64,000 nt of DNA from Mesorhizobium plurifarium (GTDB lineage: Bacteria > Pseudomonadota > Alphaproteobacteria > Rhizobiales > Rhizobiaceae). Below the pieces are notes generated by a model that saw only the letters and a program-made list of their open reading frames with translations, ran no database searches and was not told where the DNA came from. Below are positions 5,190 to 58,088 of this stretch, one piece after another; the first letter of the stretch is position 1, and each line of letters begins with the position of its first letter. Location of the stretch: NCBI GenBank assembly GCA_000824785.1, contig CCNB01000003.1, forward strand, positions 222,332-286,331, in the 5' to 3' direction. Made by a program: the position numbers and the translations under genes.

Positions 5190-6398
5190 TTGACCCTGTT
5201 GAACCTTCTGGCCTCGCGCTCCTCGCGCATGAAGGCTTCGGAAATCCGCGAGCTGTTGAAGCTGCTCGACCAGCCGGACATCATCTCCTTCGCCGGCGGC
5301 ATTCCCGACCCGTCGCTGTTTCCAGCCGAAGCGATCGGCGATGCCTACCAGGCGGTGCTGGGCGGCACGGACGCGGGGGCAGCGCTGCAGTATCAGGTCA
5401 GCGAAGGCTTCCTGCCGCTGCGCAAATGGCTGGCCGCCTATATGGGCAAGCTTGGCGTTCAATGCGACGAAGGCAACATCTTCATCACCTCCGGCTCGCA
5501 GCAGGCGCTCGACTATCTCGGCAAGCTCTTTTTGTCCCCCGGCGACACTGCGCTTGTGACATGGCCGACCTATCTCGGCGCGCTGCAGGCCTTCAACGCC
5601 TATGAGCCGCGCTATGACCGGTTGAACACCGCCGGTGGCAACATGACGCCGGAGGCTTATCGCGCTGCCGCGGCCGCAAATGGCGGCAAGGTGAAGTTCG
5701 CCTATCTGGTGCCGGATTTCGCGAATCCGACCGGCAACACCCTGGACACCAAGCAGCGCGAGGCGGTGCTCGACTTGGCCGGCGAGCTCGACATCGCCGT
5801 CATCGAGGACGCCGCCTATCGCGCGCTGCGTTATGACGGCGAGGGTGTGCCGCCGATCCTGGCGCTCGACTGCGCCCGCTCCGGCGGCATCGATCATGCG
5901 CGCACGCTCTATTGCGGCTCCTTCTCGAAAATCCTGTCGCCCGGCATGCGCGTCGGCTGGGTCTGCGCGCCGCGTCATGTGGTGGAAAAGCTTGTGCTGA
6001 TGAAGCAGGCCTCCGACCTGCACAGCCCCTCGATCAACCAGATGGTCATGCACCGCGTCGCCGAAACCGTCTTCGACGCCCAGGTGGACAAGTTGATCGG
6101 CGCCTACCGCAAGCGGCGCGACGCGCTGCTTGGCGCGCTCGAAGCCAACATGCCCGACGGCATTTCCTGGAGCCGTCCGGACGGCGGCATGTTCGTCTGG
6201 CTGACGCTGCCGGAAGGCACGGACGCCACCGAGCTGCTGGCGCGCTCGGTCAAGGAGGCGCGCGTCGCCTTCGTGCCGGGCAACGCCTTCTACGCCGACG
6301 GCACCGGCCGCAACACGCTGCGCATGTCGTTCACGCTTGCCGACGACCGCGCGGTGAACGAAGGCGTGCCGCGGCTGGCGAAGCTGCTGCGGGGATAA
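5190..6398 (+). CDS. PLP-dependent class I/II aminotransferase (2-aminoadipate/LysN-like)
   Basis: A 402-residue fold-type I aminotransferase. Features seen are the opening RSSRMKASEIRELLKLL, the glycine motif ITSGSQQALD (99-108), Asn179 in DFANPTG, Asp207 in VIEDAAYRALRY, and the PLP lysine Lys247 in CGSFSKILSPGMRVGW. The pattern matches LysN/AAT-like enzymes that transaminate aromatic or 2-amino-dicarboxylic acids. It has no GntR helix-turn-helix domain, so it is not a MocR regulator. TTG at 5190 is the likely start, because GCGGGAGG lies seven bases upstream. A terminator-like hairpin follows at 6550. Confidence 0.85.
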   Translation: MTLLNLLASRSSRMKASEIRELLKLLDQPDIISFAGGIPDPSLFPAEAIGDAYQAVLGGTDAGAALQYQVSEGFLPLRKWLAAYMGKLGVQCDEGNIFITSGSQQALDYLGKLFLSPGDTALVTWPTYLGALQAFNAYEPRYDRLNTAGGNMTPEAYRAAAAANGGKVKFAYLVPDFANPTGNTLDTKQREAVLDLAGELDIAVIEDAAYRALRYDGEGVPPILALDCARSGGIDHARTLYCGSFSKILSPGMRVGWVCAPRHVVEKLVLMKQASDLHSPSINQMVMHRVAETVFDAQVDKLIGAYRKRRDALLGALEANMPDGISWSRPDGGMFVWLTLPEGTDATELLARSVKEARVAFVPGNAFYADGTGRNTLRMSFTLADDRAVNEGVPRLAKLLRG

Positions 6399-6549
6399 GC
6401 CTTCAATCACCGCCGTCTCGCGCAGGCGTGATTGGTAGTGCGCAGGCGTGATTGTTCGCGCGGCCGATTCCTCGGTTAGTGTCGTGATCGATCCAACACC
6501 CCCTGGATCGACCGGCCGTGGGGTCCCACCTCCATAGTCCGAACGAAAG

Positions 6550-6583
6550 AGCCCCGACGCCTCCACCGGCGGGGCTTTTTCTT
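6550..6583 (+). terminator. Rho-independent terminator
   Basis: Stem AGCCCCG (6550-6556) with CGGGGCT (6570-6576), followed by a T-run to 6583. It lies 150 bases after the aminotransferase stop. The sequence before it (6480-6545) is itself rich in short palindromes, so the hairpin could end either the aminotransferase mRNA or a separate small RNA. Confidence 0.7.
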
Positions 6584-6662
6584 TGTCCAGGCAGGCGGTC
6601 GCGCCTGCTTGCCCTTTTTCGGGCCGCTTTTCCGCTACGCTGTGTTGTTCAGGGAGGATCAA

Positions 6663-7208
6663 ATGATCTTGCGCGTCAGCTTCACCATGCTTGCCCTGGT
6701 CGCCTTGGCCACCCAGGCGCAGGCGTTCGAGATATCCAGCCCCTCGGTCTCCGACGGCAAATGGGATGCGAAATATCTCGGCGACAAGGCCGGCTGCGGT
6801 GGGCAGAGCGTCTCGATCGCGCTTGCCTGGAAGGATCCGCCGGCCGGCACGAAGAGCTATGCGCTGACCATGTTCGACACCGACGCCAATGGCGGCAAAG
6901 GGTTCTGGCACTGGCTGGCCTGGAACATCCCGGCGAGCGCCAAGGGACTGCGCGAGGGCGCCGGCGCGCAGGGTGGCAAGCGCATGCCCAAGGGCTCGTT
7001 ACTGGGTAAAGGCGACGTCGGCCGCGTCGGCTATTTCGGCCCGTGCCCGCCGCCCGGCAGCGGCGACCATCACTATGTCTTCACGCTCTATGCGCTGGGC
7101 GAAAAGACGCTGCGCACGCCGGACAATCCGCTGCCGGACATGGTCTCGGTCGCGGCGAAGAGCTCCGCGCTCGGCCAGGCGACGGTGACGTATACTTATG
7201 GGAGGTAG
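6663..7208 (+). CDS. YbhB/YbcL-type Raf-kinase-inhibitor-like (PEBP) protein, exported
   Basis: A 181-residue PEBP-family protein with an N-terminal signal peptide (MILRVSFTMLALVALATQAQA, probable cut after residue 21). The bacterial PEBP core is visible as LTMFDTDANGGKGFWHWLAWNIP, a phosphatidylethanolamine-binding-like pocket, and later GPCPPPGSGDHHYVFTLYAL. The role of bacterial homologues is not settled. ATG 6663 is chosen over an earlier in-frame TTG because of the perfect AGGGAGG at 6651-6657 and because it places the signal peptide at the true N-terminus. Confidence 0.85.
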   Translation: MILRVSFTMLALVALATQAQAFEISSPSVSDGKWDAKYLGDKAGCGGQSVSIALAWKDPPAGTKSYALTMFDTDANGGKGFWHWLAWNIPASAKGLREGAGAQGGKRMPKGSLLGKGDVGRVGYFGPCPPPGSGDHHYVFTLYALGEKTLRTPDNPLPDMVSVAAKSSALGQATVTYTYGR

Positions 7209-48557: not shown

Positions 48558-49613
48558 ATGCACATGACCGATCCGGGGGGGATTTTCCGACAGAATGCCA
48601 ATGCCGATGCGCGCCTCGCGGCGATCGTCGATTCATCCTACGACGCCATCATCGGCAAGAATCTCAACAGCATCATCACCGATTGGAACCAGGCGGCCGA
48701 GCGTATGTTCGGCTACAGCGCCGAGGAGGCCGTGGGCCAATCCATACTGATGCTGCTCCCCGAGCATATGCACAACGAAGAAGCCGAAATCATCGGCCGC
48801 ATCCGTCGGGGCGAGGGGGTGGGGAGCCACGAGACGACGCGCAAGCGCAAGGATGGCTCGCTGATCGCCGTGTCGATCACCGTCTCGCCGATCAGGAACA
48901 ACACAGGCGAGATCATCGGCGCCTCGCAGATCGCCCGCGATATCTCCGCCGCCAAGGAAAGCGAGCGCCGCATCCGCCTCCTGATGCGCGAGGTCAACCA
49001 CCGCGTGAAGAACCAGTTCGCGGTGATCCTGTCGATGGTCAGGGAAACCAGCAAGCGCTCGACCGACCCCCGCGAGTTCGAGGAAATGATCCGCGCCCGC
49101 ATCATGGCGCTGTCGCGCTCGCACGACCTTCTGGTCACCACGGAATGGGCCGGCGCCAGCCTGTTCGACCTTGTCCAGGAACATTTGAAGCCCTTCGGCC
49201 ATGAAGACCGCATCTCGCTTTCCGGACCGCTTCTAACGCTGCAGTCGAATGCCGTGCAGAATCTTGGCATGGCCTTCCATGAACTCGGCACCAACTCGTC
49301 CAAATATGGCGCGCTGGCCTCGGAGGGCGGCCATATCGAAATCACCTGGAAGGTTAAAACCGGCCCCGAAGCGCAGCGACGCTTTCATCTTGTCTGGCAC
49401 GAGACATCCGCGGGGGCGGCAACCGCGCGGAAGGCGCCCGAACGCAAGGGGTTCGGCACCGTGGTGCTGCAGCGGGTGGCCCCGCAGTCGCTGAGCGGTT
49501 CCTCCAGCCTCGAACGCTCGCCCGAGGGTGTGAAGTGGGCACTTGAGGCGCCGCTCGAGGCGATCGTCGTGCCGCAGCTCGGCGCTGAAGATGGCAGTGA
49601 TTTCAAGGGCTAA
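48558..49613 (+). CDS. PAS-domain HWE-family histidine kinase
   Basis: A 351-residue soluble kinase with an N-terminal PAS domain (residues 20-130: IVDSSYDAIIGKNLNSIITD, MFGYSAEEAVGQS) and an HWE kinase domain. The phospho-accepting His148 is in EVNHRVKNQFAVILSM. The HWE/HisKA2 N-box is FHELGTNSSKYGAL and the WxE motif is LVWHETSA. Such kinases can feed the PhyR-NepR-EcfG general stress cascade in alphaproteobacteria, which fits the stress genes around it, but no phyR is seen here. Confidence 0.9.
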   Translation: MHMTDPGGIFRQNANADARLAAIVDSSYDAIIGKNLNSIITDWNQAAERMFGYSAEEAVGQSILMLLPEHMHNEEAEIIGRIRRGEGVGSHETTRKRKDGSLIAVSITVSPIRNNTGEIIGASQIARDISAAKESERRIRLLMREVNHRVKNQFAVILSMVRETSKRSTDPREFEEMIRARIMALSRSHDLLVTTEWAGASLFDLVQEHLKPFGHEDRISLSGPLLTLQSNAVQNLGMAFHELGTNSSKYGALASEGGHIEITWKVKTGPEAQRRFHLVWHETSAGAATARKAPERKGFGTVVLQRVAPQSLSGSSSLERSPEGVKWALEAPLEAIVVPQLGAEDGSDFKG

Positions 49614-49734
49614 GGTGCCTGCGCGGGCGGTCCTCCCTTGTAGCTCTGTAAAGTTGGATTACATCATGTAACAGAGCGTGTGATCGCACGCTCAGGTAGG
49701 TTGCTTTGGTCAAGCTTCATCCATGGAGGTTGTC

Positions 49735-50088
49735 ATGGCAATGATGGAAGCAAGAAAGAGTCTCGACTGGATCACTCTGGTCCTCGCGATCTGCCTGTTC
49801 ATCTCACCCTGGGTCATCGGATTCACCGCGGCGATGGTGCCCGCGTGGAACGCCTGGATTGTCGGCGTTCTTCTCGGCGCGCTGGCGCTGGCGACGCTTT
49901 CGGTGTTCGCCGAGTGGGAAGAATGGGCAAGTGTGGTCCTTGGGCTTTGGCTGATCGTGTCGCCCTGGTTGCTACGCTTCGCGGCTGACACGCATGTCAT
50001 GGCCACGCATGTCGTCCTCGGCGTGCTGGTGGTCGCGGCATCGGCTTGGGCCGTCTGGGACTTCCGTCATCCCCACGCGCATGCGTGA
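49735..50088 (+). CDS. SPW-repeat membrane protein
   Basis: A 117-residue membrane protein with two copies of the SPW motif, FISPWVIGF and IVSPWLLRF, each within a pair of transmembrane helices. About four spans in all. The role is unknown. ATG 49735 is chosen over 49723 because GGAGG lies six bases before it. Confidence 0.85.
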   Translation: MAMMEARKSLDWITLVLAICLFISPWVIGFTAAMVPAWNAWIVGVLLGALALATLSVFAEWEEWASVVLGLWLIVSPWLLRFAADTHVMATHVVLGVLVVAASAWAVWDFRHPHAHA

Positions 50089-50224
50089 GGGGTGACTGAA
50101 TGGGAGCCCGCCGCGTGAGCGGCGAGCTCCTCGGACTTTGATCTCTTGGGCATGGGGCAAGGCGGCTGTTGCGGTGGCTTCACGCAATTGCTGCAACCGG
50201 AAACCTTTTCGTGCATTCTTGGGA

Positions 50225-50404
50225 ATGGCCCCGATGCTCCAGCCCGACACCCCCGCCAAATGCTGCTCCTATTGCGGCGGCCGCGACCATGATTTCGAGG
50301 AATGTCCGAAACGCAAAGCCGACGCCGAAAGGGAGCGCGAGACGGCGCGGGTTGCCGGCGTTAAGCCTCCGCTCGCCGAGGAAGATGTATCGGCAAAGTC
50401 CTGA
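50225..50404 (+). CDS. Small CCHC zinc-knuckle protein
   Basis: A 59-residue protein whose centre, CSYCGGRDHDFEEC, fits C-x2-C-x4-H-x4-C exactly, the retroviral-type zinc knuckle. The rest is charged and probably disordered. Zinc knuckles bind single-stranded nucleic acid in eukaryotes and viruses; they are rare in bacteria. ATG 50225 or ATG 50234 may be the true start; the second is better placed behind GGGAA. Confidence 0.55.
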   Translation: MAPMLQPDTPAKCCSYCGGRDHDFEECPKRKADAERERETARVAGVKPPLAEEDVSAKS

Positions 50405-50518
50405 GGCTGCGGTCCTCCAGCGCTGCGATCATTCCGCACTTTAACCTTAAGCGCACGCCATTGAGGTCAGGGCGGTCGCGCCAAGCCCCGACTTTTTCTG
50501 GGACGATCGAAGAACGGC

Positions 50519-50556
50519 GTTGAACCGGTCTATAGTCTCGGACCGGGGGTGCGCGG
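50519..50556 (+). promoter_or_regulatory. Promoter shared with the 53909 gene
   Basis: TTGAACCGGTCTATAGTCTC and the following 20 bases up to the GTG start resemble, position by position, the sequence before the GTG at 53909. TTGAAC and TATAGT fit -35 and -10 boxes. The leader would be about 15 bases long with no clear ribosome site. Confidence 0.6.
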
Positions 50557-50997
50557 GTGGCGGACATCGTCTCAATAGGAACAGGTGCGGAGTCTGCTTG
50601 GCGGCTGTCGGCGGGGCGCTTGCGGCTGATTGCCTTCACGGCGCTCGCCGCCTTCATGATCGCCGGTCCGGTCGCCGAGCAGATATTCGGTGTGCGAACG
50701 GCATTGCTGCGCTCCTGGACGATGTTCAGCGCCATCGGGCTCGGCGTGATCGACGCTTCCTTCGAAATCCGACGGCCCGACGGCGCGCTTGTTCCGCTCG
50801 ACCGGTTCGAGATGCTTGGCGCGCCTCGCAACGGGGGGCTGAAATGGATCCAAAGCCGCGAGGACCTGGCGTCCGTCATCAAACGGCTCTGCGCGGTCGC
50901 CGGGCAGGGCGCCGACATCCGCGTGCGCGCCAGGCTTGGCATTCGCGGCGGGTGGCAGACCATCCATACCGATGACCAAAATGCCTGCGCGGACTGA
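50557..50997 (+). CDS. Hypothetical membrane-anchored protein with shared N-terminal leader
   Basis: A 146-residue protein. The first 24 residues, MADIVSIGTGAESAWRLSAG and on, align with those of the Gly/Asn-rich protein at 53142-53909. A transmembrane helix follows (LIAFTALAAFMIAGPVA), then a soluble domain with FEIRRPDGALVPLDRFEMLG. No family is known. The GTG start is supported by the shared promoter and leader. It overlaps the HTTM gene by about 26 bases. Confidence 0.6.
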   Translation: MADIVSIGTGAESAWRLSAGRLRLIAFTALAAFMIAGPVAEQIFGVRTALLRSWTMFSAIGLGVIDASFEIRRPDGALVPLDRFEMLGAPRNGGLKWIQSREDLASVIKRLCAVAGQGADIRVRARLGIRGGWQTIHTDDQNACAD

Positions 50998-51886
50998 CTT
51001 GATCGCCGACTGGCGGAACTGGCGTTCGGCATCCGCCTGGGCCGCGCGCTTCGTTGGCTGGGCGGTCGAGACGGAGGGCTCGTCGCGTTCGTCCGCGTTG
51101 ATCCGCATCGGCCTGGCAATGCTGTTCTGGTCGCGCTGGGCCGGCGAGTTGCTGCTCTATATGGACCGATCGCCGGCCGGCCTGTTTCTGGCGGCCAACT
51201 TCTTCGTCGCCACCGCGCTGCTCTTCATCGGCTATCACAGCCGCGCCGCCGCCGTCTGGGCGGGCGCGGTCGGACTGGCGATGTACTATTATTTCGGCTT
51301 CCAGCTTGGCCGCGAGCCCTGGACCCACCACCATACCTATCTGCTTGCCGTCGCGGCGCTCCTGATCGCGCTCACCCCTTGCGGCCGCTCCTATTCGCTG
51401 GATCGCTATCTGGCGGTGATGCACGCCGAGCGTATGGGTGGTCCGCCGCCGGCGGAGCGCGGCAATCTATGGGGGCTACGACTGATCGTGGTGCAGCTCT
51501 CGGTGCTCTATTTCTTCGCCGCCTTCGACAAGTCGAACCACGCTTTTCTCAGCGGCGCGCGCCTCGAGCAGATATTCCTCTGGTACTATGCGGGTTCGGA
51601 TTACCCGGCCGGCCTTGCCTGGCCGGCCACCATGGCGTCCGTCGCCGTGGTCGCGCTTGAATATTGCTTGGCTCTTGGCCTGCCGTTTCGCCGCAGCAGG
51701 CGCTTTCTGGTCGTGCCTGGCCTGGCGTTTCATGCCATCCTCTACCTGACGCTGCCGGTCTATACATTCAGCGCCACCATGGCGTTGCTCTATCTCGCCT
51801 ATTTCGACACGGATGCCGTCGACGAGGTCATCGCGCGTCTCCACGGAACCGGACCGGCACCGACTGCCAGAGGGGAAGTTTCGTGA
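50972..51886 (+). CDS. HTTM-domain (vitamin-K-carboxylase-like) membrane protein
   Basis: A 304-residue protein with the HTTM arrangement of transmembrane helices: ALIRIGLAMLFWSRWAGELL, then the family's HHHTYLLAVAALLIALTPCGRSYSLD and FFAAFDKSNHAFLSG. HTTM domains occur in vitamin-K-dependent gamma-carboxylases and in many bacterial proteins of unknown reaction. Two start codons (50972, 50981) are possible. It overlaps the secreted-protein gene by four bases (GTGA), so they are coupled. Confidence 0.8.
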   Translation: MTKMPARTDLIADWRNWRSASAWAARFVGWAVETEGSSRSSALIRIGLAMLFWSRWAGELLLYMDRSPAGLFLAANFFVATALLFIGYHSRAAAVWAGAVGLAMYYYFGFQLGREPWTHHHTYLLAVAALLIALTPCGRSYSLDRYLAVMHAERMGGPPPAERGNLWGLRLIVVQLSVLYFFAAFDKSNHAFLSGARLEQIFLWYYAGSDYPAGLAWPATMASVAVVALEYCLALGLPFRRSRRFLVVPGLAFHAILYLTLPVYTFSATMALLYLAYFDTDAVDEVIARLHGTGPAPTARGEVS

Positions 51887-53055
51887 GGCGTGGTTTGTTG
51901 TTTTCGGGCGCCGTCGCCGTCGCGGTGGCCATGAGCCTGGCCATGGACTGCAGCGTGGCGCATGCTGGCGGTGCCGAGGACTATTATCCCAAGCGCGTAT
52001 GGGGTTCCTTCGAAGGCGGGCAGATGAACACCTCGCTGCTTGTGTTCCGCGACCTTAACAGGAACGGCGTCTACGATCTGGGCGACCGGCCGATGTCGCG
52101 CGTGGCCGTCGAGCTCGACAAGCCGAACGGCAGCACGATCATGCGCCTGACCAATGTCGACGGCTTCGCGAATTTCCGCATGTCGGTCAGCCAGCGTGAT
52201 TTCGAAGTTGTCGATCCCGGGCACTATGCGTTCCGCGTCGTGCCACCGCCGGGGTATACTGTCACCACCGGCAATGCCTCGCAGGAAAGCGACTATGTCG
52301 TTTCGCCCGGATCGCCGGGCGACATGATTGCAAGGACCACCACGCATCCGGTCGGTCTCGCGGCGGACCTGACGATGGGCGGCGCGGCCGCCGCCGGATC
52401 GCGCGTGTCCCTCACGGGGCCCGACGGCGTAACGTCCGCCGCCAAGGTCGGCCTCGACGGGCGCTTCAGCGCAGCCGTCACGCCAGGCGAATGGCTGGTC
52501 GATTTTTCGGCCGGCGGAGCGACTGAGCGGAGGCATGTCGTCGTCGGCTCGGCGCCGGTAATACTCTCGGCGTTTTCCGGCCTGGGCAGATCGGCCGAGG
52601 CGCCGCTGCCCAACCAGCATGTCGTCGGCTTCGACGACTTGATGACGTCGCCCGGCGTGTTCGAAATTCCGTCCGGTTACGGCGGGCTCAACTGGTACAA
52701 CCTCGTTGCCATGCACCAAAGCTTCACCGCTGGCCCGGGCTACGTCAACACCACCATGTCGGGCGAGTTCATCGCCTATAACAGCTCCGGCCACCCGGCG
52801 CAGGTGTTCAGCGACAAGCCGTTCGATTTCACCGGCGCCTATTTCGGCGCCGGCTGGGACGATGCGGAGGGCGAGACGCTGATCCTCAAAGCATGGCGGG
52901 GCGATGAGCCCGCCTATGAGGACCAACTGGCGCTGTCCGCCAACGGCCTTGTCTATTTCGCGGCCGACTACAGCCGCATAACGAGGCTTGAGATCCGCAC
53001 GCTGCATTACTGGCAGGCCGCGATCGACGATTTCGCTTACCGCACCGGGCCGTAG
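51883..53055 (+). CDS. Exported protein with Cna/SdrD-like domains
   Basis: A 390-residue protein with a signal peptide (MRRGLLFSGAVAVAVAMSLA, cut near the AHAGG site). Residues 40-140 look like a Cna-B/SdrD beta-sandwich (VFRDLNRNGVYDLGDRPMSR and GYTVTTGNASQESDYVV). A second carboxypeptidase-regulatory-like module and a C-terminal all-beta domain (DFTGAYFGAGWDDAEGETL, then LEIRTLHYWQAAIDDFAY) follow. It is likely a surface or periplasmic binding protein and could be a substrate of the HTTM protein. Start GTG 51883. Confidence 0.75.
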   Translation: MRRGLLFSGAVAVAVAMSLAMDCSVAHAGGAEDYYPKRVWGSFEGGQMNTSLLVFRDLNRNGVYDLGDRPMSRVAVELDKPNGSTIMRLTNVDGFANFRMSVSQRDFEVVDPGHYAFRVVPPPGYTVTTGNASQESDYVVSPGSPGDMIARTTTHPVGLAADLTMGGAAAAGSRVSLTGPDGVTSAAKVGLDGRFSAAVTPGEWLVDFSAGGATERRHVVVGSAPVILSAFSGLGRSAEAPLPNQHVVGFDDLMTSPGVFEIPSGYGGLNWYNLVAMHQSFTAGPGYVNTTMSGEFIAYNSSGHPAQVFSDKPFDFTGAYFGAGWDDAEGETLILKAWRGDEPAYEDQLALSANGLVYFAADYSRITRLEIRTLHYWQAAIDDFAYRTGP

Positions 53056-53141
53056 CGCGATCAGCAGAGTGGCCGCTGCGTTCAGGCATGAAGCGCGTCC
53101 TTTGGTCGGCTTCTGCGCGAGTGCGTAAAGGCCACGCCGCG

Positions 53142-53909
53142 TCAGCAGGACGATCTCGGAGAAGTTCCGCAGGAACGCGGGCCGCCGTCCGAATGCCCGG
53201 CGCCGTCGTTGTGATGGCCGGTGCCGCCATTGCCTCCGGAACTGCCGTTCCCGCCGGAGCTGCCGTTTCCACCCGAGCTGCCGTTGCCACCGGAGCCGCC
53301 ATTGCCTCCCGAGCCGTTGCCACTGGAACCGCCATTCCCAGCAGAGCCGCCGTTGCCCCCTGAACCGTTCCCGCCGGAACCACCGTTCCCGCCACCATTT
53401 CCAGCGCCGCCGTTTCCAGCGGATCCGCCATCGCCGCCGGAGCCGCCGTTGCCGCCATTCCCTCCGTTGCCGCCAGCGGAACCACCGTTGCCGCCATTCC
53501 CTCCGTTGCCGCCAGCGGAACCACCGTTGCCGCCGTTCCCGCCAGCGGAGCCGCCGTTCCCGCCATTTCCTCCGTTGCCGCCATTCCCTCCGTTTCCGCC
53601 AGCGGAGCCGCCATTGCCGCCGTTGCCGCCATTTCCGCCGGTGGCCTGGGCCAGAAGAGCGCGCTTGGCCTCCTGCAGCAGGGCTTTCCGATCTATGGAC
53701 TGGTGGAGCCCGTCTCGCGACTCCGGCAGGACCGACACCGCGCGCGTTGTGATCGGCAGCAGCATGGTCGATGCCAGCACCGCCGCTGCCACAATGGGAA
53801 GGGATCGCCGCCTTATGCCGGCATTGCCCGTGAAGGCCAAACCGAAGCGTCCTGCCGACACTCGCCTGGCAGGCTCGGAACCTGTTTCGATCGACATGAT
53901 ACCAGTCAC
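53142..53909 (-). CDS. Gly/Asn-rich repeat protein (PGRS-like) with shared leader
   Basis: A 255-residue protein. Residues 1-24 (MTGIMSIETGSEPARRVSAG and on) match the leader of the 50557 protein. Residues 30-60 hold a hydrophobic segment (RSLPIVAAAVLASTMLLPI). Residues 90-240 are a long run of GGNGGNGG, GGSAGGN and similar units, like mycobacterial PE_PGRS or glycine-rich cell-surface proteins. The end has two cysteines. Its GTG start at 53909 is supported by the shared promoter. Surface adhesion or matrix roles are speculation. Confidence 0.72.
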   Translation of the reverse strand: MTGIMSIETGSEPARRVSAGRFGLAFTGNAGIRRRSLPIVAAAVLASTMLLPITTRAVSVLPESRDGLHQSIDRKALLQEAKRALLAQATGGNGGNGGNGGSAGGNGGNGGNGGNGGNGGSAGGNGGNGGSAGGNGGNGGNGGSAGGNGGNGGNGGSGGDGGSAGNGGAGNGGGNGGSGGNGSGGNGGSAGNGGSSGNGSGGNGGSGGNGSSGGNGSSGGNGSSGGNGGTGHHNDGAGHSDGGPRSCGTSPRSSC

Positions 53910-53947
53910 CCGCGTAACCCGGGCGGGACTATAGACGGGTTGAACCT
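53910..53947 (-). promoter_or_regulatory. Promoter shared with the 50557 gene
   Basis: Minus strand: TTCAACCCGTCTATAGTCCC and following bases, aligned with 50519-50556 (TTGAACCGGTCTATAGTCTC). The spacing from TATAGT to the GTG start is nearly the same. Confidence 0.6.
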
Positions 53948-54014
53948 TTGTTCTCGACCATCCCAGAAATAGTCATCTGGTCGACGCGGCGGCCGCTCGT
54001 CCGGCGTCCTCGGT

Positions 54015-54497
54015 TCATTTGTCGTGCGCGCCTCTCACCCGCGCTGCCGCCTCGGCAAAGGAGATCTCGCCCTTGATCTCGCGCATCGCCATCGAGGTCA
54101 CTGTGCGGCGCACGCCGGGCAGGCGGCTGAGCTCCTCGCGCAGCATGCGATCGAGCGCCATCATGTCGACGGTGACGATCTGGAGCAGATAATCGGCTTC
54201 GCCCGTGGTGGCGTAGCAGCGGCGGATCAGCGGGTGCTTCTTCACCGCCGCCTCGAAGGCATCCGACACCTCGAAGTCGATCGACACCTGGATGAAGGCC
54301 TCGATGCCGAAGCCGATCCCGGCCGGGTCGACGCGGGTCGAATATCCGCGGATAATGCCGGCCTCTTCCAGCGCCTTCACCCGTTTCCAGCAAGGCGTCT
54401 TGCTCAATCCGACCTCCTCGGCGAGCGCGCCGAAGGAGATGCGAGCGTCGCGCTCAAGCGCAGCGACTATTCTGCGGTCGAGTGCATCCAACGTCAT
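54015..54497 (-). CDS. Lrp/AsnC-family regulator
   Basis: A 160-residue regulator: helix-turn-helix (LDALDRRIVAALERDARISF, then LAEEVGLSKTPCWKRVKALEE) and RAM domain with IRRCYATTGEADYLLQIVTVD. It is divergent from the tryptophan-dioxygenase-like gene, probably regulating it. ATG 54497 is the natural start; the frame extends upstream through the promoter region. Confidence 0.88.
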   Translation of the reverse strand: MTLDALDRRIVAALERDARISFGALAEEVGLSKTPCWKRVKALEEAGIIRGYSTRVDPAGIGFGIEAFIQVSIDFEVSDAFEAAVKKHPLIRRCYATTGEADYLLQIVTVDMMALDRMLREELSRLPGVRRTVTSMAMREIKGEISFAEAAARVRGAHDK

Positions 54498-54549
54498 TCG
54501 TTCTCCAATATGGCAGAAGATGTCGACAATCGTCCTTCGTTTTTTGCCA

Positions 54550-54579
54550 CTTGAACAACAGAAAGGAACAATGTTCAAG
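54550..54579. promoter_or_regulatory. Inverted repeat upstream of the dioxygenase-like gene
   Basis: CTTGAAC (54550-54556) and GTTCAAG (54573-54579) form perfect seven-base inverted arms with a 16-base A-rich spacer, about midway between the Lrp gene and the dioxygenase gene. An Lrp operator is likely. Confidence 0.5.
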
Positions 54580-54633
54580 CCGAAAGCGCTATCCTTGTCG
54601 CCAAGTCGAAACCCGACGCGAGGAGGACGAGCC

Positions 54634-55389
54634 ATGGACAAGACGGACTATCACGCCCGCATCGAGGCGCCCGAAATGCGCGACTACGGCGTTTATCTGA
54701 AATGCGACCAGCTGCTCGCCTGCCAGAAGCCGCTCGCCGAGATGGTCAATGCCGACGAATTGCAGTTCCAGATCGTGCATCAGGTCGAGGAGCTTTGGAT
54801 GAAGCTTATCGCCTACACGCTGGTCGACGTGCTCGACTATCTGGAGAGGCAGGACACCCACCGCATCGTCACGCTGATGGGCCGCGTGCACCGGTTGATG
54901 CGCATGATGACGGCGCAGCTCGATCTCCTGGAGACGATGTCGCCCAAGGAGTATCAGCAGATCCGCCTGCAGCTCGGCAATGGCAGCGGCCAGGAGTCAC
55001 CCGGTTTCAAGCTCTTGCTGCGCCTGCCGCCGGATCTTTGGCGGGCCTTCAAGCGTGCCTATTGCGACGGCCGCGGGCTGACCGTGGAGGATATCTATGA
55101 CGAGCATTACGACCACGGTGATTCCTATGTCGTGGCCGAGGCGCTGATCGAGTTCGACGAGCTGTTCCAGAAATTCCGCGCCAACCACCTTTATCTGATC
55201 CACCGCTCGATCGGGCTGGGCGCCAAGTCGCTGAAGGGACGGCCGGTGGAAATCCTCGAAGGCGGCGCCCGCCATCGCTTCTTCCCCGAGCTCTGGGACA
55301 TACGCTGCGACATGACCGACCGCTGGGGCGCCGAATACGGCACCGTGCGGGATTCAATCAGCCATCCGCCGCAAGCAAAGGCGGGGTAA
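54634..55389 (+). CDS. Tryptophan 2,3-dioxygenase family protein, divergent
   Basis: A 251-residue protein of the haem dioxygenase family. Seen are LQFQIVHQVEELWMKLI (with the distal-side His), LGNGSGQESPGFKLLL, and FFPELWDIRCD near the end. The haem-ligand region keeps a His (RANHLYLIHRSIG). The usual GTGGSSG loop that binds the substrate carboxylate is replaced by AKSLKGRPVE. Tryptophan oxidation to N-formylkynurenine is the family reaction; this member may differ. Length is a little short. GAGGAGGACGAGCC precedes ATG 54634. Confidence 0.8.
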   Translation: MDKTDYHARIEAPEMRDYGVYLKCDQLLACQKPLAEMVNADELQFQIVHQVEELWMKLIAYTLVDVLDYLERQDTHRIVTLMGRVHRLMRMMTAQLDLLETMSPKEYQQIRLQLGNGSGQESPGFKLLLRLPPDLWRAFKRAYCDGRGLTVEDIYDEHYDHGDSYVVAEALIEFDELFQKFRANHLYLIHRSIGLGAKSLKGRPVEILEGGARHRFFPELWDIRCDMTDRWGAEYGTVRDSISHPPQAKAG

Positions 55390-57764: not shown

Positions 57765-58088
57765 TTACTTGCCGCAATTCTTGTCATTGACGTTCGGCTC
57801 CATCGTGCCGGCGGTCGAGTTGTTCGCATCGCCCACCGTGCCCTGCGGGCTGTTCGGGCAGTTCTTGTCGGCGTTCGAATTCATGTCGCCGCCACTGATG
57901 CTGCCGGTCGTGCCGGTGTCAGGCGGCCCCATCTGGTCAGGCGATGGCGTGGCCGGCGTCTTCGGGTCGACGGTGATGGTCTGGCCGCTGCCGCCGCCAT
58001 TGTTTCCGGCGGTGCCGGCGGTCTGGCCCATCGCCGCCGTGGCGAGACCGATCGTCAGGGCCGAAGCTGCAAGGATCTTCATAAGCAT
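57765..58088 (-). CDS. Exported Gly/Asn/Thr-rich hypothetical protein
   Basis: A 107-residue protein with a signal peptide (MLMKILAASALTIGLATAAM) and a low-complexity mature part rich in Gly, Asn, Thr and Pro, with two cysteines in the repeated motif DKNCPN and DKNCGK. It recalls the exported 38102 protein. An EcfG-type promoter match precedes it. Confidence 0.65.
   Translation of the reverse strand: MLMKILAASALTIGLATAAMGQTAGTAGNNGGGSGQTITVDPKTPATPSPDQMGPPDTGTTGSISGGDMNSNADKNCPNSPQGTVGDANNSTAGTMEPNVNDKNCGK

Follow-up and report, generated by a model that had tools for sequence, protein, structure and literature searches.

Inverted copies of a putative promoter and leader flank a candidate HTTM envelope module in Mesorhizobium

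A four-gene locus in Mesorhizobium plurifarium carries an inverted repeat that gives two very different genes the same promoter region, translation start and N-terminal leader. The locus sits in a 64-kb stretch of a 7.1 Mb genome (contig CCNB01000003.1; hereafter the window, with positions counted from its first letter). Three plus-strand genes with overlapping ends run toward a convergent minus-strand gene for a Gly/Asn repeat protein; they encode a small membrane-anchored protein (gene 1), a membrane protein of the HTTM family and an SdrD_B-type protein. One copy of the inverted repeat stands at the head of each of these two units. Our reading is that this block of ∼150 bp is probably an old duplication of a promoter plus translation start, which would co-express two convergent units of one envelope module in Mesorhizobium.

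The two copies, at 50490–50641 on the plus strand (copy A) and 53974–53828 on the minus strand (copy B), align by BLAST within the window over 153 columns with 74.5% identity (E 6e-19). Both point inward, with gene 1-HTTM-SdrD facing the Gly/Asn gene. A preliminary description of this DNA had noticed a shared promoter and leader on the genes starting at 50557 and 53909, and these are present as it said. Its estimate of about 40 bases for the shared promoter was too small, since the block runs for ∼150 bp from a 20-bp box through ∼22 codons, and its “oppositely oriented” genes do form a convergent pair, with the correction that the HTTM and SdrD-type genes lie behind the first. From 5′ to 3′, each copy comprises the 20-bp box, a TATAGT hexamer, a G-rich stretch, a GTG codon, and ∼22 codons of the gene that follows. 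The edges of the shared block are sharp. When each of 21 A copies is compared with each of 19 B copies, from the genomes described below, mean A-B identity reaches 0.91 within the box, 0.48 across the preceding 25 nt and 0.55 beyond the leader.

Box A (CGACTTTTTCTGGGACGATC, 50489–50508, plus strand) may serve the gene 1-HTTM-SdrD operon as an activator or promoter element, and box B (TGACTATTTCTGGGATGGTC, 53956–53975, minus strand) is its counterpart at the Gly/Asn gene. Downstream of each lies a putative −10 element, TATAGT. The element at A (50531–50536, plus strand) is aligned in 21 A copies, some of which read TATGAT, TATACT or are otherwise altered, and a promoter scan found no −35/−10 pair at this site. 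The element at B (53928–53933, minus strand) belongs to a sigma-70-like pair, TCGAGA-18-TATAGT, that scores 9 of 12. Sigma-70-like pairs, with −35 and −10 hexamers 16–18 nt apart, occur at two sites in the region, against a mean of 0.3 in shuffles.

The two translation starts differ in strength. The sequence GGGGGTGCGCGG lies 5′ of the gene 1 GTG, and the GGGGG Shine-Dalgarno-like stretch with its start codon spans 50545–50559 (plus strand). Pairing with the 16S tail reaches −14.0 kcal/mol, where 2000 random 20-mers of the window average −4.7 kcal/mol, with the 5th percentile at −10.2 kcal/mol (duplex energies of the A rows exclude L073 and L076). The preliminary view that the GTG almost lacks a ribosome site therefore fails for gene 1 and holds for the Gly/Asn GTG at 53909, where pairing is weak (−3.7 kcal/mol). 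An in-frame ATG at 53897, four codons past that GTG, may be the true start of the Gly/Asn gene; among the 19 B copies an in-frame ATG falls at codon 5 in six (window included), at codon 7 in four and at codon 9 in one, with none in eight. In two of these eight, L076 and L089, a 1-nt deletion shifts the first B-leader codons out of frame, and these two copies may start at the ATG right behind the deletion.

Gene 1 is found in 21 distinct genomes (the window, L029, L073, L076 and L080–L096, with L086 being a metagenome-assembled genome [MAG] titled only Alphaproteobacteria). Copy A is present in all 21, and copy B in all 19 loci whose contig reaches that far, the contigs of L081 and L086 stopping short. 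The suspected link to HTTM is upheld by this comparison: of the 19 loci having both copies, 18 have an HTTM gene between them and the remaining one, L094, has lost it, and gene 1 directly precedes HTTM in 20/20 HTTM-holding loci (of 21). The Gly/Asn gene is present in all 19 assessable loci, with a C-terminus that is alike in 18 and lost in L094. Flank order is constant where matched, the kinase/SPW/small-ORF (open reading frame) side lying next to A and the Lrp side next to B, so that inversion between the repeats is not seen. The preliminary description had named absence of the leader from related genomes as half of what would speak against it, and the leader does recur there. Even inside the genus, the locus is patchy. 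A gene 1 match occurs in nine of 61 genomes (our own plus 60 relatives), namely our own, seven of 36 congeners, and one short, weak match in another family. A gene 1 profile run over 347 genomes of the order gave four matches at E ≤ 0.01; our own and that of one congener were full-length, and the other two were short and weak (L097, E 7.8e-5; L098, E 0.005). Scanning genome contigs for gene 1 yielded 17 loci, 15 from Mesorhizobium (one a MAG) and two from MAGs of broader title.

Decay at these loci is also informative. L094 (genome G098) lacks HTTM and SdrD, and its gene 1 and Gly/Asn protein have each lost the C terminus, while both promoters are retained; the sequence at 6001–7144 apparently reflects a single deletion that fused a truncated gene 1 tail to tail with the Gly/Asn repeat region. 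A relic in L071 (G106) keeps only promoter A and ∼22 codons, next to Lrp. These relics suggest that the genes of the module tend toward joint retention or joint loss. Three genes each match in two frames (HTTM in L082, gene 1 in L076, SdrD in L090), which may be decay or assembly error.

The exact 16-bp box core occurs in our own genome at the box A and box B sites only, and a box search found no third copy of the block there; DNA searches of the genome with each copy found nothing further, yet they were insensitive, the sister copy itself being missed both times. Across 146 congeners, exact boxes among the matches listed form ten inverted pairs ∼3.3–3.8 kb apart, together with a closer pair in G098, spaced 1.2 kb, an unpaired box in G106 (the relic) and one of our own two. 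Some box match at ≤2 mismatches exists in 120 of the 146, and many of the 2-mismatch matches, among the loci inspected, look coding by eye (L044-type, L045-type).

The near-copies CGACTATTTCTGGGACGATT and TGACTATTTCTGGGACGAAT precede genes for PqqD-like (PF05402) and Transglut_core3 (PF13471) proteins (L057:1501–2425 and L046:1052–1520, in other congeners; both family assignments were made in L057). This might be the same regulator acting at a cluster resembling those for ribosomally synthesized and post-translationally modified peptides, and the few noncoding-looking matches before such genes make a wider regulon possible in those species. Two other congeners carry paired near-copies on the same strand, ∼335 bp apart (L078:3825 and 4156; L079:2581 and 2919).

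Leader A (MADIVSIGTGAESAWRLSAGRL, 50557–50622, plus strand) consists of the first 22 codons of gene 1, and leader B (MTGIMSIETGSEPARRVSAGRF, 53844–53909, minus strand) of the first 22 codons of the Gly/Asn gene, with the ATG at 53897 as alternative start. In frame, the ratio of nonsynonymous to synonymous divergence (dN/dS) is 0.32 for A-A, 0.62 for B-B and 0.42 for A-B comparisons, against A-B values of 0.93 and 1.37 in the shifted frames (21 A rows and 17 of 19 B rows, L076_B and L089_B being dropped). To judge from these codon substitutions, the leader is translated and under moderate protein-level constraint. A protein search of our own genome with the leader recovered copy A weakly, at E 0.455, ranked behind four unrelated-looking matches. 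By hydropathy, a hydrophobic segment follows both leaders (residues ∼24–40 of gene 1 and ∼37–53 of the Gly/Asn protein), and the SdrD-type protein has a signal-peptide-like N terminus without a leader.

Such constraint invites an explanation in which the leader works as a genuine targeting tag, an N-terminal peptide on the cytosolic side routing both proteins to one membrane site, for example the HTTM complex; the preliminary description had likewise proposed a common export or anchoring route, which the sequences support in part. The in-frame constraint in both copies agrees with this, as do the gene 1 leader dN/dS of 0.30, inside the range of the remaining gene (0.23–0.35; gene body from 13 of 21 sequences), the position of HTTM between the copies in all but one locus, and the leader being added length ahead of a usable signal or anchor helix. 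However, conservation peaks upstream of the coding region, the leader DNA (0.79 within A copies, 0.74 within B copies) falling below the box (0.92 and 0.91). Leader dN and dS are both higher than in the rest of gene 1, and dN is double that of codons 47–90 (0.152 versus 0.076). Moreover, the first codons are frameshifted in L076_B and L089_B, the SdrD-type protein does without the leader, and the HTTM partners of L104, L106, L108 and L111 start close to their hydrophobic stretch. We consider a dedicated tag unlikely. Co-expression through a duplicated promoter and start fits these sequences better, and an export role is possible as a secondary one. The leader would then chiefly represent the translated end of the copied region, tolerated and mildly conserved as a basic cytosolic tail before the membrane or signal helix.

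The resemblance between copies might instead reflect a small repeat, mobile or recombinogenic, that landed here twice by chance and whose promoter activity would be incidental. The sharp edges of the block would suit such an element, as would raised A-B identity within genomes (0.759, versus 0.748 between genomes; permutation p 0.0016 and 0.0019 over 19 genomes, in a test that takes no account of relatedness and is driven in good part by L092 and L094). Identity is raised in those two, to 0.905 and 0.887; p rises to 0.026 without them and to 0.069 without four more genomes. Occasional gene conversion between A and B is plausible on these figures, and a FastTree tree of the 40 copies, poorly supported at many nodes, intermixes A and B. 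Mobility is nevertheless very improbable, given that the box search finds no further copy in our own genome, that both copies occupy homologous places before the same two genes in the loci seen, and that the leader is constrained in frame. Least probable of all is that gene 1 and the Gly/Asn gene are true paralogs with bodies diverged past recognition: they do share promoter, start, leader and a following hydrophobic helix, but A-B identity drops to 0.55 right after the leader and the two bodies are wholly different in make-up.

Under the duplication reading, one promoter and translation start would have been duplicated and kept at both ends of the four-gene module. A single regulator would read box A and box B, and the gene 1-HTTM-SdrD operon and the facing Gly/Asn gene would thereby be produced together. 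Less surely, gene 1 and HTTM may constitute a two-piece membrane enzyme of GGCX/SdpAB type, in which HTTM would supply the membrane core with catalytic Lys and His, and gene 1 would add the linker and an outer domain. Substrates or partners of the enzyme could be the exported Gly/Asn protein, the SdrD-type protein, or both. We treat the split GGCX-like enzyme as a working model; its basis is the match of the HTTM protein, the conservation of two catalytic residues, the order of the genes and a gene 1 model that is itself weak.

The HTTM protein of the locus (50972–51886, plus strand; 304 aa), whose gene overlaps gene 1, matches PF05090 at 42.2 bits (cut-off 27.7), and profile alignment with hhalign against two GGCX sets gives E 1.2e-6 and 7.8e-9. 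K187 aligns with the second Lys of the GGCX KK pair (K218, numbered after the K217A/K218A naming of PDB entries) and H121 with the His of NNH. Both are invariant in 15/15 orthologs (alignment A4, the window plus 14 of the 17 scan loci; omitted were L082, read in two frames, L086, cut at the contig end, and L094, without HTTM). By alignment, then, HTTM retains the GGCX catalytic Lys and His. In GGCX, K218 acts as the base and removes a proton from vitamin K hydroquinone, H160 contributes to holding the Glu, and M401/M402, in the membrane-to-lumen linker, line the active site (PMC12589487).

HTTM genes occur in ten of 190 Alphaproteobacteria genomes, our own included, and in no viral contigs; among solved structures, the HTTM profile had no sequence match at E ≤ 1. 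Elsewhere in the class, a small ORF of 142–179 aa with the motif PSWRFF ends at or shortly before the HTTM start in all six short-HTTM loci inspected. Class ORFs were displayed only if they held a W..F motif, and the evidence is the exact shared PSWRFF together with position. These six loci indicate that pairing of HTTM with a small partner recurs in Alphaproteobacteria. L102 is a full HTTM-plus-lumenal protein with PF22777, a family above cut-off in one of 349 genomes of the phylum; L103 entered the comparison as a protein fragment, and L110 and L112 lie outside the HTTM locus comparison.

Gene 1 (50557–50997, plus strand; 146 aa) comprises the leader, a membrane helix (model residues 19–44), an SWTMF motif (53–57), in a second helix of the model, and a small α/β domain (61–146). 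With this model, the first six Foldseek ranks are GGCX (best E 0.26), and VIA-align ranks 1–11 place GGCX ∼405–491 on model residues ∼61–146 (Z 5.5–6.2, 79–80 residues, 3.1–3.3 Å). By eye, the model and GGCX have a common order of helix, SWxM, strand, helix and strands. SWTMF would match SWDMM of human GGCX, at M401/M402 by our own count; in VKGC-like proteins the motif reads AWRMM (L102), SWRMR (L113) and AWRMK (the L103 fragment). On the basis of this low-confidence model and short motif, gene 1 may be a detached lumenal partner of HTTM of GGCX/SdpA type. Sequence tests for homology between gene 1 and the lumenal domain of VKGC gave no significant result. No Pfam or NCBIfam family matches gene 1 at E ≤ 1, none of its 16 orthologs (alignment A3, the window plus 15 of 17 scan loci, with L092 and L094 omitted; alignment A2 holds 13 proteins) matches PF22777 at E ≤ 10, and three of the 16 have a weak LAL_C2 match (best E 0.03).

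Several results weigh against these readings. The box fits no known regulator and lacks a good −35 element. Mean model confidence (predicted local distance difference test, pLDDT) is weak for gene 1, at 54, and the HTTM model, at 46.5, is too poor to use, its fold search being uninformative. Foldseek gave no match to the gene 1 model at E ≤ 0.001; VIA-align rank 12 is an unrelated designed ferredoxin-fold protein at Z 5.2, with other unrelated rows at 4.0–4.5, and Z values under 8 can reflect a common arrangement. Gene 1 scores 9.9 in hhalign against the VKGC lumenal domain, where 60 column-shuffled controls have a mean of 11.6 and a maximum of 18.8, ranks among decoys in hmmsearch against the same domain, and does not match the six other HTTM partners by profile (hhalign P 0.2). 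PF17418 (SdpA) has no match in our own genome at E ≤ 10, with a positive B. subtilis control. The 140-residue repeat of the window Gly/Asn protein (84 Gly, 28 Asn, 19 Ser, 7 Ala, 1 Thr, 1 Asp) has no Glu, so that classic Glu carboxylation of the repeat is impossible there. Finally, no menD lies above cut-off in the genome, with nine matches below it and the futalosine route not searched; vitamin K may be lacking. The boldest form of the proposal, a split quinol-using relative of the vitamin K-dependent (VKD) carboxylases (gene 1 plus HTTM) that chemically matures an exported polyglycine-type Gly/Asn protein in rhizobia, its small subunit and its substrate sharing the copied leader so as to be produced together and reach one membrane site, strikes us as quite doubtful.

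The Gly/Asn protein (53142–53909, minus strand; 255 aa) consists of the leader, a signal-peptide-like helix, a LLQEAKRALLAQ stretch, GGN/GGS repeats, and a C terminus with two Cys. This order is general, the conserved stretch reading LQEAKRALLAQA or similar, and intact proteins span 205–346 aa between genomes with variable repeat length. Whole proteins hold two Cys in 14 of 19 cases and three in the other five. In the window, the tandem repeat encoding the GGN/GGS triplets spans 53217–53640, with a 237-aa Pro-rich ORF on the opposite strand. The SdrD_B-type gene (51883–53055, plus strand; 390 aa), whose GTG start overlaps the HTTM stop, matches PF17210 at 37.6 bits (cut-off 29.7).

The outer flank on the gene 1 side encodes an SPW-repeat protein and has a small ORF that matches no Pfam family; the Gly/Asn side holds an Lrp/AsnC regulator (PF01037) and a further gene, presumably tryptophan 2,3-dioxygenase. 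In L087, where box A has diverged, an extra Lrp/AsnC-like stretch (5413–5739; 37% identity to the window Lrp) lies just 5′ of gene 1, and none was seen in the other loci compared. Rfam at gathering score has no match in window 49500–55000. Farther out, at 57765–58088 (minus strand), there is a small exported-looking ORF of 107 aa with a short NNGGGSG stretch.

Literature searches on HTTM, SdpAB, GGCX residues, polyglycine II, VKD carboxylase and Mesorhizobium gave, by title and abstract opening, no account of this locus. The locus compactly pairs a possible two-piece HTTM enzyme with its likely partners, and the common promoter and leader mark genes that belong together; it is thus a concrete rhizobial genetic system for asking what HTTM enzymes target. 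The duplicated start region is in addition a clear case of a promoter plus leader that was placed before a second, unrelated gene and has persisted there, and gene conversion may occasionally have acted on it.

Of known systems, GGCX is the closest comparison for the HTTM domain, which is above the Pfam cut-off with catalytic Lys and His aligned and invariant; the low-confidence gene 1 model resembles GGCX ∼405–491, with an SWxM motif as in the membrane-to-lumen linker. In contrast to GGCX, the parts here are two separate genes in reverse order, gene 1 has no PF22777 sequence match and, by eye and our own count, does not conserve Tyr395, the window Gly/Asn repeat is without Glu, and the genome is without menD above cut-off. 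In Bacillus subtilis, where PF17418 and PF05090 both match, we take SdpA to precede SdpB in sdpABC and yitPOM, with SdpB as the HTTM-type protein. The likeness lies in a small membrane-anchored protein whose gene stands directly ahead of that for an HTTM-type protein, and in the presence of genes for exported partners at the locus. The differences are that gene 1 has no PF17418 match, that no immunity-like gene was recognized, and that the partners here, by eye, are Gly/Asn repeat and SdrD-type proteins with no SdpC-like precursor. The Gly/Asn protein itself recalls Gly-rich GGX-repeat surface proteins such as PE_PGRS and collagen-like proteins in its long GGN/GGS triplets and its weak compositional matches to collagen chains. 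No PE domain was seen in it (Pfam gives no family), and it differs from these proteins in having a signal-peptide-like helix, a conserved stretch before the repeats and a Cys-bearing C terminus.

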